Of a stretch of DNA of 64,000 bases, positions 57,762 to 60,159 are shown piece by piece. Origin of the DNA: an uncultured Roseovarius sp. (GTDB lineage Bacteria > Pseudomonadota > Alphaproteobacteria > Rhodobacterales > Rhodobacteraceae); contig CANMOU010000001.1 in the NCBI GenBank assembly GCA_947499555.1, positions 372,001-436,000 on the forward strand. Direction: 5' to 3'. Numbering within the stretch: position 1 is the first letter of the stretch; each line of letters starts with the position of its first letter. Below the pieces are notes generated by a model. That model had not been told where the DNA came from. It searched no databases and saw nothing but the letters and a program-made list of their open reading frames with translations. The translations under genes and the position numbers were made by a program.

Positions 57762-58038
57762 GTGTTTGCCTTCTATCGTTAGGGTTTCTTCTAGCTCGAG
57801 ACGATATTACCTGACAACGAACCTTGGAATAGTCGAGCGAAAGTTCGCTTCGTCCGCATACCCGCCATTTCGAGTTTTGTGTTCGCCCTGTGATCCGGTG
57901 CCGGCTGGAGCAAAACCGTCGCCCATGCGCAACTCAGCTTTTGTCGTAACGCAAAATCAATACATCGGCGTATTCGTGGCATGTAGCGGCAGATTCAACA
58001 CTTGCTTGGCCCTCGGGATCGCGGCACACTGAGGGCCT
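57762..58038. other. intergenic stretch, no gene seen
   Basis: About 280 bases between the GST start and the riboswitch. Open frames on both strands lack initiation signals and protein-like composition. CGAGCGAAAGTTCGCTTCG at 57835-57853 contains a small GCGAA/TTCGC hairpin. It presumably holds the promoters for GST and the riboswitch transcript, but none is clear enough to call. Confidence 0.4.
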
Positions 58039-58200
58039 CAAGGTGCCGTGCGGTTGCGCGGAGAATTGGGAAGCCGGTGCAAGTCCGGCACTGCCCCCGC
58101 AACGGTAAGGATGGGGGATGCTGCATAAAGTCACTGAGGTGTCATTGCCTTGGGAAGACGCGGCATCCGGAAAACCCGCCAAGTCCGGAAACCAGCCTTG
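58039..58200 (+). ncRNA. cobalamin (AdoCbl-type) riboswitch
   Basis: Complete aptamer. The closing stem P1 is CAAGG (58039-58043) with CCTTG (58196-58200). The core contains GGGAAGCCGGTGCAAGTCC, the B12-box stretch CTGCCCCCGCAACGGTAA (58091-58108), GTCACTG and the distal GGGAAGACG and CAAGTCCGGAAACCAGCC (58180-58197). It senses cobalamin and controls the gene that starts 113 bases later. The element is complete and every conserved block is in order. Confidence 0.97.
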
Positions 58201-58266
58201 GATCAACGTCAAGCCGCGGGGGGCGGTGCGGGCGTGTGAGACAGGGGCTCGCATCGCCAGATTTTG

Positions 58267-58313: not shown

Positions 58314-58586
58314 ATGACAGTCAGCCGGATTCTGGATGGGTTGGAACGCAGTGAGGCAACCGGACGGGACGCCGATGCAATAGCGCGCCTTGGGTTTCTG
58401 GAATGGGTCTTAACCCAGCCCGATGCGGTCACGTCGAAAGATGTGACTGAGGCCTTGCATGATGCTTCTGTGCAAAACCCGACAAGTGCAGCTGCGCGTG
58501 CTTTTGTCGACGTACTGCGCGCGGCGCGCCATGTGTCGGTGTTGCCGGTGCGTCGGGGCGGCCGACAGGCGCGACACCTGCATTAG
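58314..58586 (+). CDS. cobalamin-riboswitch-controlled small protein of unknown function
   Basis: Protein of 90 residues starting MTVSRILDGLERSEATGRDA. The first 70 residues are predicted helical, amphipathic and balanced in charge (AIARLGFLEWVLTQPDAVTS; EALHDASVQNPTSAAARAFV); the last 20 are basic with His-Leu-His at the end. No signal peptide, membrane span or cysteine. The GGAGGAG ribosome-binding site 8 bases before ATG and the upstream riboswitch make it a true gene. I do not recognise it, nor does it resemble BtuB, Cob or Met proteins that usually follow this riboswitch. Possible roles include a B12-status effector or a partner of B12 enzymes such as NrdJ. Confidence 0.7.
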   Translation: MTVSRILDGLERSEATGRDADAIARLGFLEWVLTQPDAVTSKDVTEALHDASVQNPTSAAARAFVDVLRAARHVSVLPVRRGGRQARHLH

Positions 58587-58610
58587 GTGTCCCTGATCGG
58601 GAGAGCGAAT

Positions 58611-58800
58611 AAAAAAACGGCGACGTCTGGGAGGAGGAGCGACGTCGCCGTTTCTTCACGTCCGGCTCCGGGGAGGAGGAGTGGAGCCATTGGTGTCTTC
58701 TCGGGCCACAAAGACCCAGTATTTTAAAGCGGCAAACCCAAAGGAGGAGGAGCGGGCCTGTCGCGAACACAGACGTCTAGGGAGGAAGTTAAGACGCCTG
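58611..58800 (-). ncRNA. array of four CUCCUCC-loop hairpins (CcsR-like small RNAs)
   Basis: Minus-strand transcript reading from about 58800 to 58611 with four stem-loops. Stems: CGTCT/AGACG (58774-58796), GCGGCA plus CCC with GGG plus TGTCGC (58729-58764), GGCTCC/GGAGCC (58664-58688) and a 13-bp AAACGGCGACGTC stem (58615-58653). Loops are 13-14 bases and read, on the minus strand, CTTCCTCCC, CTCCTCCTCC, CTCCTCCTCCCC and CTCCTCCTCCCA. The last hairpin is followed by seven T and doubles as terminator. This matches the CcsR/cuckoo RNA family of Rhodobacterales, which is stress-induced. The usual upstream DUF1127 gene is absent. Confidence 0.82.
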
Positions 58801-59088
58801 ATCTCTGTATAGGTAGCGCCTCTGGTGGTCGGGCTTTTGCCCTTTAGCGACCATGTCGAGTGACACCCGTTATTCTCGTTAGGGGGCGATATTGCTGCCC
58901 TGCAGCGATTAAGGTAATCAAATGCTGCATCTGCACAATACCCTTTCGATGCAAGTCTGCCATGCAGAAAATGCATGAAAAGATTGTTCTTTTTTGTGCG
59001 GAGCGCTGAAATAATCGCCGGTTCGAAGACCTGTTGGCCCACGTGCCGTAAAACTGAAGCAACTGCCAAAAATTGAGGCGAAGAGAAA
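58801..59088. other. intergenic stretch between the hairpin array and apbC
   Basis: No convincing gene. On the minus strand it must hold the promoter of the hairpin array; a GGTC...GGGC-AAAA-GCCC-GACC dyad at 58828-58853 is a candidate regulatory or structural element just upstream of the first hairpin. On the plus strand TTGTTC (58984-58989) and TGAAAT (59007-59012), 17 apart, could be the apbC promoter. Confidence 0.4.
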
Positions 59089-60159
59089 ATGTCTGACGTG
59101 CTCGACCGCGTGCGTGCGGTGCTTGAAAAAATCGATTTGCCGGATGGTGGCACGCTTATGTCGCGCGACATGGTGCGCGCCATGCGAATCGATGCCGGGC
59201 ATTTACGCTTTGTCATTGAAGCGCCCTCTGCAAAGGTGGCGCAGCATATGGAGCCGCTGCGCGCTGCGGCGGAGCGGGCCGCTCTCTCAGTCAATGGTGT
59301 CGAGAGCGTTTCGGTTGCGCTGACGGCGCATGCAGATGCGGGACAGTCTCAGACCCCCCAGCTCAAGATCGGCGGTCATCCGAAAGGCGGCGATCGTTCG
59401 ATCCGCCCGGCAAGCGTGGGGTCCATTCTGGCCATTGCCAGCGGAAAGGGCGGCGTTGGCAAGTCGACCGTCTCGTCAAACCTTGCTGTGGCGCTTGCAA
59501 AAGCAGGCCGCCAGGTCGGGCTTCTGGATGCCGACATTCATGGCCCCAGCCAGCCGCGCATGATGGGCAGCGCCCAACGGGCTGCCAGCCCTGATGGCAA
59601 GATCATTACGCCGCTTTTGGCGCATGGCGTGAAGCTGATGTCGATTGGATCGATGATGGAGGACGGAAAGGCGGTGATCTGGCGCGGTCCGATGCTGATG
59701 GGAGCGTTGCAGCAAATGATGAGCCAGGTGGATTGGGGCGATCTTGACGTGCTCATCGTTGATTTGCCGCCGGGGACCGGGGATGTGCAACTGACGCTGT
59801 GCCAGCGCGCCGCACCGACGGGTGCAATTGTCGTCTCGACGCCGCAGGACGTTGCGCTTCTTGATGCCCGTAAAGCGATCAACATGTTTCAGACGCTTCA
59901 GACGCCAATACTGGGGCTTATCGAGAACATGTCGCTGTTTCACTGCCCGCATTGCGGCAAGGAAACCGAGATTTTTGGTCATGGCGGGGTGGCGCAGGAG
60001 GCAGAGCGCCTTGGCGTGCCGCTGCTTGCGGCATTGCCGATCGATCTTGAAACCCGTCTTGGAGGCGACGCAGGAACGCCTGTCGCCTTGGGGCAGGGCC
60101 CCATGGCGGAGGCCTATCTTCGTCTGGCAGACCGGCTGATTCAGGGCGGCGTTGCCTAG
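59089..60159 (+). CDS. apbC: Mrp/ApbC iron-sulfur cluster carrier ATPase
   Basis: Protein of 356 residues: N-terminal MIP18/DUF59-type domain (about 1-85) and a P-loop NTPase domain with the deviant Walker A ASGKGGVGKSTVSSNLAVAL (about 122-141), IVDLPPGTGDVQLTL and the cluster-binding CPHCG (about 285-289). It assembles and transfers 4Fe-4S clusters. In some genomes it is near cobalamin genes, as here next to a B12 riboswitch, though no shared transcript is evident. The start follows GAGGCGAAGAG. Confidence 0.95.
   Translation: MSDVLDRVRAVLEKIDLPDGGTLMSRDMVRAMRIDAGHLRFVIEAPSAKVAQHMEPLRAAAERAALSVNGVESVSVALTAHADAGQSQTPQLKIGGHPKGGDRSIRPASVGSILAIASGKGGVGKSTVSSNLAVALAKAGRQVGLLDADIHGPSQPRMMGSAQRAASPDGKIITPLLAHGVKLMSIGSMMEDGKAVIWRGPMLMGALQQMMSQVDWGDLDVLIVDLPPGTGDVQLTLCQRAAPTGAIVVSTPQDVALLDARKAINMFQTLQTPILGLIENMSLFHCPHCGKETEIFGHGGVAQEAERLGVPLLAALPIDLETRLGGDAGTPVALGQGPMAEAYLRLADRLIQGGVA

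Follow-up and report, generated by a model that had tools for sequence, protein, structure and literature searches.

The minus strand of the window (the whole stretch of 64,000 nucleotides that was analysed) carries four stem-loops with anti-Shine-Dalgarno loops at 58800-58611, with CUCCUCCUCC in three of them and the shorter UUCCUCCC in hairpin 1. We consider it probable that this array is a cuckoo/CcsR-type sRNA gene, from which an LsrB/VtlR-activated precursor would be made and cut into sRNAs that block strong Shine-Dalgarno sites. The new element, as seen by sequence comparison, is a rigid promoter block with a TGCA-N6-GCAT box upstream of such arrays (127/132 loci), as in the LsrB-activated NfeR1 promoter of Sinorhizobium.

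In the proposed mechanism, a LysR regulator of the LsrB/VtlR type would bind the TGCA-N6-GCAT box (about -71 to -58) and activate minus-strand transcription from about 58904, generating a precursor of about 290 nt that would terminate at hairpin 4 and its U7 tract and would probably be cleaved between the hairpins to give RNAs with one or two hairpins each. Several interchangeable CUCCUCC loops would be exposed on each transcript and would pair with strong GGAGGAG Shine-Dalgarno sites and lower the translation of those mRNAs. The DUF1127 (CcaF1-like) gene, which normally lies between promoter and array, would have been lost in an ancestor of the clade, so that the promoter would now drive the array directly. 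Against this explanation it must be noted that the window has a weak hairpin 1 and a weak -10 element (TACCTT), that the Rfam gathering scores are not reached and that the 15-mer of the regulator motif is three mismatches away from its published form.

Structure of the array

The features of the array are as follows.

58770-58800, minus strand: hairpin 1, with the loop UAACUUCCUCCCU, a degenerate form of the motif (fold)
58729-58764, minus strand: hairpin 2, with the loop (G)CUCCUCCUCCUU (fold)
58702-58718, minus strand: small motif-free spacer hairpin (GGGUC-UUUGU-GGCCC) between hairpins 2 and 3 (fold)
58664-58688, minus strand: hairpin 3, with the loop ACUCCUCCUCCCC (fold)
58615-58653, minus strand: hairpin 4, with a terminator-like stem and the loop GCUCCUCCUCCCA (fold z -5.7; covariation)
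58611-58617, minus strand: U7 tract, the predicted transcript end (sequence)
58612-58700, minus strand: Rfam CcsR1 match of 50.0 bits, covering hairpins 3 and 4

The four minus-strand stem-loops described in the original prediction are all included in the minimum-free-energy fold of 58600-58820 (221 bases), which has an energy of -81.6 kcal/mol, compared with a shuffle mean of -62.3 (z -4.5), and none of 200 shuffles is as good. The hairpin picker finds four such hairpins in the window, in a single cluster. When the whole window is shuffled 60 times with preservation of its dinucleotides, single hairpins are common (mean 2.6, maximum 7), and the biggest cluster within 220 bases has two hairpins, in one of the 60 shuffles, versus four in the real cluster. 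Loops of 13-14 bases had been claimed for all four hairpins, and this claim fails for hairpin 1 (UAACUUCCUCCCU, one CUCC repeat short) and hairpin 2 (12 bases). The terminal U7 tract is present, at 58617-58611, and is found only on the last of the window's hairpins; the terminator scan reports no site at hairpin 4, the loop of which exceeds the length limit of the scan. Short hairpins resembling the spacer hairpin are also seen by eye in relatives. In the nearest relative (L012 and L224, G008), inspection by eye shows a stem-loop that is kept at the place of hairpin 2, with the anti-Shine-Dalgarno loop missing.

Conservation of loops and variation of stems

Relatives were compared at the mrp locus, mrp being the divergent neighbour of the array. 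The sample consists of 80 named mrp loci, being the best 80 of at least 558 as chosen by Mrp similarity, and of 62 loci of the genus (61 with the mrp type of the window and one paralogue as a control). For the latter, 85 genomes of the genus were searched, 81 of which have an mrp match; genomes in which the match was just the paralogue or an incomplete gene are outside these counts. Together with the window this gives 143 loci, and removal of nine duplicates, the paralogue (L285) and a truncated locus (L093) leaves 132. The closest named relative among the matches listed is an uncultured Roseovarius with an 87% identical Mrp; records of the window's own genome were possibly excluded.

The synteny check in related genomes that accompanied the original prediction is positive, as at least one such hairpin is found in each of the 132 distinct mrp loci, with 600 hairpins in total. 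In these 600 loops CTCCTCC occurs 563 times, TCCTCCC 593 times and the exact CCTCCTCCC 482 times, counts that are partly built in, since the picker required a related motif. The same hairpins have 226 distinct six-base 5' stem ends. When the motif is left out of the search, and the only requirement is a long stem with a T run after it, downstream of the promoter block, 105 hairpins are found in 93 loci, of which 100 have a CCTCC loop; on the opposite strand there are 20 such hairpins, none with a CCTCC loop.

The last two hairpins were also aligned with MAFFT, in 26 rows (the window and 25 of 31 extracted loci; L237, L240, L243, L248, L254 and L264 were removed by hand). The loop cores TCCTCCC and CCTCC are invariant in this alignment. 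Hairpin 4 has an outer stem that is partly invariant and inner pairs that change. Because the register shifts at hairpin 3, pairs were counted for hairpin 4 only, where both sides have changed in 4 of 11 pairs and 100% of the counted cells are paired. None of 500 shuffles reaches the set of five measures, except for the pair types, reached by 24 of 500, in a control in which relatedness remains. These comparisons agree with the claim that the loops are kept and the stems vary.

The longest chain per locus ranges from 1 to 22 hairpins, and 37 of the 132 loci have more than four. The 22 hairpins are those of Primorskyibacter flagellatus CGMCC 1.12644 (L096 1173-2465), where they form 11 tandem copies of a 118-bp unit of two hairpins. 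The near-identical loops, this spread in chain length and the lack of a common targeting sequence in the stems (226 distinct ends) would also fit a global anti-Shine-Dalgarno buffer, in which the loops are a dose of generic competitors for strong sites without a defined gene set. We regard this as an unlikely reading that nevertheless carries some weight, and it is at odds with the defined targets given in the available parts of the reports on NfeR1 and CcsR (ntrB and flhR, respectively; PMC10746234, PMC8307010).

Relation to known RNA families

The covariance check proposed for the array has a divided outcome. The array matches CcsR1 (RF02791) with 50.0 bits (E 6.8e-11), where the gathering score is 65.3, and alpha-r14/NfeR1 (RF02344) with 43.8 bits (E 2.1e-6; 48.3 bits in a smaller search), where it is 58.8. 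By the Rfam thresholds, the array is a called member of neither CcsR1 nor ar14. The matches are well above background, the runner-up CcsR1 score in the genome being 18.8 bits, and the CcsR-like design is upheld. When 20 chosen syntenic relatives are compared with all of Rfam, the ar14 cut-off is passed by two (L073, L101) and that of CcsR1 by none. A second array in the same genome was considered and rejected, as all other CcsR1 scores are at most 18.8 bits and chance-level matches also occur in 12 of 14 control genomes.

Cuckoo RNAs are said to have been defined in 2015 by two to four adjacent hairpins with variable stems and the CCUCCUCCC motif in every loop. In the window, the exact CCUCCUCCC is present in hairpins 3 and 4, CCUCCUCCU in hairpin 2 and UUCCUCCC in hairpin 1. 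Judged by its design and by the resemblance of its last hairpin to that of CcsR1, the array looks to be of the cuckoo type, a family of stress RNAs.

Three known systems can be compared with it. CcsR1-4/ccaF1 of R. sphaeroides (RF02791, CIN1 locus) likewise consists of hairpins in a row, with loops of the CCUCCUCCC type; in the Rfam alignment (CcsR1) its last hairpin has a similar CGGCG stem, and the relatives of the window share with it a DUF1127 gene at the same position. This system differs in that the window has no DUF1127 gene, scores under the Rfam cut-off and has a promoter block that looks LTTR-controlled rather than RpoHI/RpoHII-controlled. NfeR1/alpha-r14 of Sinorhizobium meliloti (RF02344) is likewise a free-standing array with anti-Shine-Dalgarno loops, and its LsrB box TGCA-N6-GCAT is at a nearly equal distance from the start, which in the window is a predicted one. 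Unlike the window, NfeR1 has three hairpins, reported targets in the ntrB and ABC-transporter mRNAs and a -35/-10 of CTTAGAC-N17-CTATAT, and the window is under the RF02344 cut-off. The third system is that of AbcR1/AbcR2 and the DUF1127 genes of the LsrB/VtlR regulon in Rhizobiales, where an orthologous regulator and a similar box motif serve anti-Shine-Dalgarno RNAs and DUF1127 genes; the AbcR RNAs are of a different family, and the regulator of Rhizobiales adjoins trxB, unlike in the window's genome.

The open literature that was searched, in the parts accessible, contains for Rhodobacterales no account of an LsrB/VtlR box at CcsR-type arrays and no description of CcsR loci without DUF1127 or of arrays with more than four hairpins. 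An earlier description is possible in the papers that founded this field (Reinkensmeier and Giegerich 2015; Billenkamp 2015; Gruetzner 2021). A term search of two sRNA papers, on Ruegeria and Paracoccus, matched no expression evidence.

The predicted promoter and its candidate regulator

The following elements are predicted upstream of the array.

58962-58975, minus strand: LTTR box TGCATTTTCTGCAT, of the form TGCA-N6-GCAT, located approximately at -71 to -58 relative to the predicted start (sequence)
58952-58966, minus strand: VtlR-like 15-mer TGCATGGCAGACTTG, overlapping the LTTR box (mismatch count to the published motif)
58933-58938, minus strand: predicted -35 element TTGTGC within the conserved ATTGTGCANNYGCAGCA (conservation)
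58911-58916, minus strand: predicted -10 element TACCTT, consensus TATcTT (inferred from the promoter rows)

The suggestion that the array has its own promoter is supported by this conserved, promoter-like block. In the alignment the block reads CxTATGCAxTTGCTGCATAGCAGCATTG, followed by 11-12 bases, ATTGTGCAnnTGCAGCAT and a TATcTT-like -10. Both block motifs are in register in 127 of the 132 loci, TGCR-N6-GCAY is in a fixed register in 112 of 132, and ATTGTGCANNYGCAGCA is matched perfectly by the window and by 112 of the 143 loci. The GCAT, ATTGTGCA and GCAGCA columns are 87-100% conserved, compared with a mean of 39% further upstream, a figure that is partly built in by the anchoring of the promoter rows on the block motifs (with up to 4 and 2 mismatches). 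A generic sigma-70 scan finds no site at the predicted -10/-35.

In the part of PMC10746234 that is available, the LsrB box of NfeR1 is TGCA-N6-GCAT at -72 to -57. The same form is found at 58975-58962 in the window, some -71 to -58 relative to the predicted start, which is estimated to be near 58904. The published VtlR motif, as quoted in the available part of PMC12595884, is matched with at most two mismatches in 96 of 132 loci, versus 0 of 396 shuffles. The 15-mer of the window has three mismatches to this motif (in reverse complement), and 6 of 396 shuffles score equally well; to the degenerate pattern of the family it has two mismatches. Genome-wide, the 15-mer gives 42 sites with at most two mismatches (8 for the reversed control), and the two best of these, with one mismatch, are inside open frames; on these grounds its use as a regulon finder was rejected.

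In seven loci of Sulfitobacter/Roseobacter (L057, L060, L064, L065, L068, L069 and L074) the block is present twice, once before each array, and the mrp-proximal copy has no TATcTT-like -10. Next to mrp, these seven loci have a short array that lacks DUF1127, and after it come DUF1127 and a second array. Both array and block are missing from L285, the single paralogous mrp locus that was examined. These arrangements suggest that the block is associated with the array and not with mrp.

With respect to the regulator, LsrB was called unique to Rhizobiales in 2025 (PMC11975290, available part), and the trxB-vtlR order is described as well conserved in Alphaproteobacteria (PMC7486931, available part). 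A LysR gene directly follows trxB in 16 of 30 trxB loci from different families of the class, and a profile of 10 of these 16 proteins matches the structure of A. tumefaciens LsrB (9HH1) with 414.5 bits, the next match having 173. With this profile, one protein of the window's genome stands out (365 bits versus 188 for the next regulator), and the same gap is seen in six other tested genomes of the family. Its best solved relative is 9HH1 (252.7 versus 116 bits). By these comparisons the genome encodes a clear LsrB/VtlR orthologue (G000:C1:346449-347312; L319 1453-2418, minus strand), the gene of which is outside the window and does not adjoin trxB. Other candidates were rejected: in L003, the LysR neighbour of the DUF1127 gene is LrhA-like, and there is no LysR gene within the 1.5-kb flanks of trxB in the window's genome, where the neighbour looks Lrp/AsnC-like by eye. 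A box before trxB (two mismatches) is not kept in the one other genus examined (best there five mismatches), and the search for conserved boxes at trxB and lsrB was negative.

An array of the same RNA family could also be transcribed by RpoHI/RpoHII, as in R. sphaeroides, with the LTTR-like block serving mrp or being a secondary input. Such a promoter is reported for the R. sphaeroides ccaF1-CcsR operon in the available parts of PMC10253847 and PMC8307010, and by eye the -35 TTG and the -10 TATcTT would be indistinguishable from a relaxed RpoH site. The position and sequence of the box, which match the LsrB site of NfeR1, the duplication of the block with arrays and not with mrp in seven loci, the LsrB orthologue in the genome and the paralogous mrp locus without block all make this improbable, and the promoter is predicted to be of the LsrB/VtlR type, not of the RpoHI/RpoHII type reported for CcsR of R. 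sphaeroides. A terminator-like or protein-coding repeat chain without RNA function is very hard to maintain: hairpin 4 and its U7 resemble an intrinsic terminator and open reading frames on the minus strand run across the array, but the core loop columns are invariant, the inner stem columns covary, the upstream block is conserved in register and the U tract is confined to the window's last hairpin.

Absence of the DUF1127 gene

In agreement with the claim that the array lacks its usual DUF1127 gene, no such gene is found at 58801-59088, and Pfam PF06568 matches three places in the genome, none of them at the array locus. The predicted -10 element is only about 110 bases from hairpin 1. When a profile of such genes is used, a DUF1127 gene is found within 1.8 kb beyond mrp in 116 of the 132 loci; in 114 of these 116 carriers the promoter block precedes the DUF1127 gene and a hairpin follows within 200 nt, the other two having no recognisable block. 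In five of the first eight relatives, inspection by eye shows a small DUF1127-like gene that separates the promoter block from the array. The Pfam model, used on 24 genomes, matches the locus in 12 of 12 carriers and in 0 of 12 non-carriers, the window's genome being one of the latter.

In the Mrp tree (133 rows; a quick method, unrooted, with SH-aLRT in place of bootstrap) six changes, each forced by well-supported branches, are needed to account for the 16 loci that lack the gene, and the window is in an 11-row clade without DUF1127 (SH-aLRT 98). These changes are read as losses because the non-carriers are few and nested among carriers, and on this comparison secondary loss is the best explanation of the missing gene. 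In loci that lack the gene, the first loop follows the ATTGTGCA motif at a median distance of 90 bases (63-161), and in loci that have it at a median of 335 (79-475). Relocation of the gene was considered and rejected, since the three remaining DUF1127 genes (C1:1504860, 793037 and 464940) have no hairpin with a CCTCC loop (score at least 16) within 1.5 kb. All 12 tested relatives with an mrp-linked DUF1127 gene have at least one other such gene. In L003 (1459-2652) a DUF1127 gene is divergent from the LrhA-like LysR gene, and in the window's genome and several relatives a DUF1127 match is 34-39 kb from mrp.

It is tempting to speculate, with an expectation that falls short of an even chance, that LsrB/VtlR and anti-Shine-Dalgarno arrays were already paired in an ancestor of both Rhizobiales and Rhodobacterales, and that Rhodobacteraceae have conserved the array as the output, with the DUF1127 protein being dispensable and the hairpin number (up to 22) evolving as a dosage setting for the redox-controlled damping of genes with strong Shine-Dalgarno sites. 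If this is true, the pairing is no rhizobial invention. The predictions bear on two published statements, one restricting LsrB to Rhizobiales and the other describing CcsR arrays as an output of RpoH. The isolated array provides a testable circuit (candidate regulator, exact box, array and candidate targets), the repeated natural absence of DUF1127 offers ready-made mutants for asking if CcaF1-like proteins are needed for RNA maturation, and the spread of 1-22 hairpins permits a dosage test.

Neighbouring genes and candidate targets

The array is flanked by the following features.

59089-60159, plus strand: mrp/ApbC-type Fe-S carrier gene, the divergent neighbour and synteny anchor
58314-58586, plus strand: convergent 90-aa orphan gene under a cobalamin riboswitch
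58024-58214, plus strand: cobalamin riboswitch RF00174, 123.8 bits

The array does face a B12-controlled gene, as had been stated, since the convergent gene at 58314-58586 follows the riboswitch. Its 90-aa protein has no Pfam or NCBIfam match; homologues are present in 39 of the 143 mrp loci (duplicates included), and letters of the riboswitch core are upstream in 36 of these 39. Among the 39 loci, a loop-fitting GGAGGAG before the B12 gene is confined to the window and its three closest relatives. This limitation to the window's clade led to the rejection of the B12 gene as a conserved target, a further positive row (L251) being an over-long extract. Judged from these loci, the facing of the B12-controlled gene is a matter of synteny, and a targeting role is weakly supported.

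Pairing with Shine-Dalgarno sites is reported for NfeR1 on ntrB (PMC10746234) and for CcsR on flhR (PMC8307010), in the parts of these papers that are available. In the window's genome, GGGAGGAG within 3-10 bases of an ATG has 10 matches (two at one site), versus 4 when the pattern is reversed. The resulting list represents strong Shine-Dalgarno sites and should not be taken for one of targets. The genes at these sites, as identified by eye from translations, include a formate dehydrogenase alpha subunit, a CoxS-like subunit, a glutamate dehydrogenase and a MerR-type gene, and the C1-metabolism flavour of the list would fit CcsR in R. sphaeroides.

Elsewhere in the window's genome there is a lone hairpin with a CCTCCTCCC loop (L009 1488-1516, minus strand), located about 20 bases past the stop codon of a gene that we take to be phasin-like, and ahead of a terminator-like hairpin. 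It is possible that this lone hairpin is a 3'-UTR cuckoo-type RNA.
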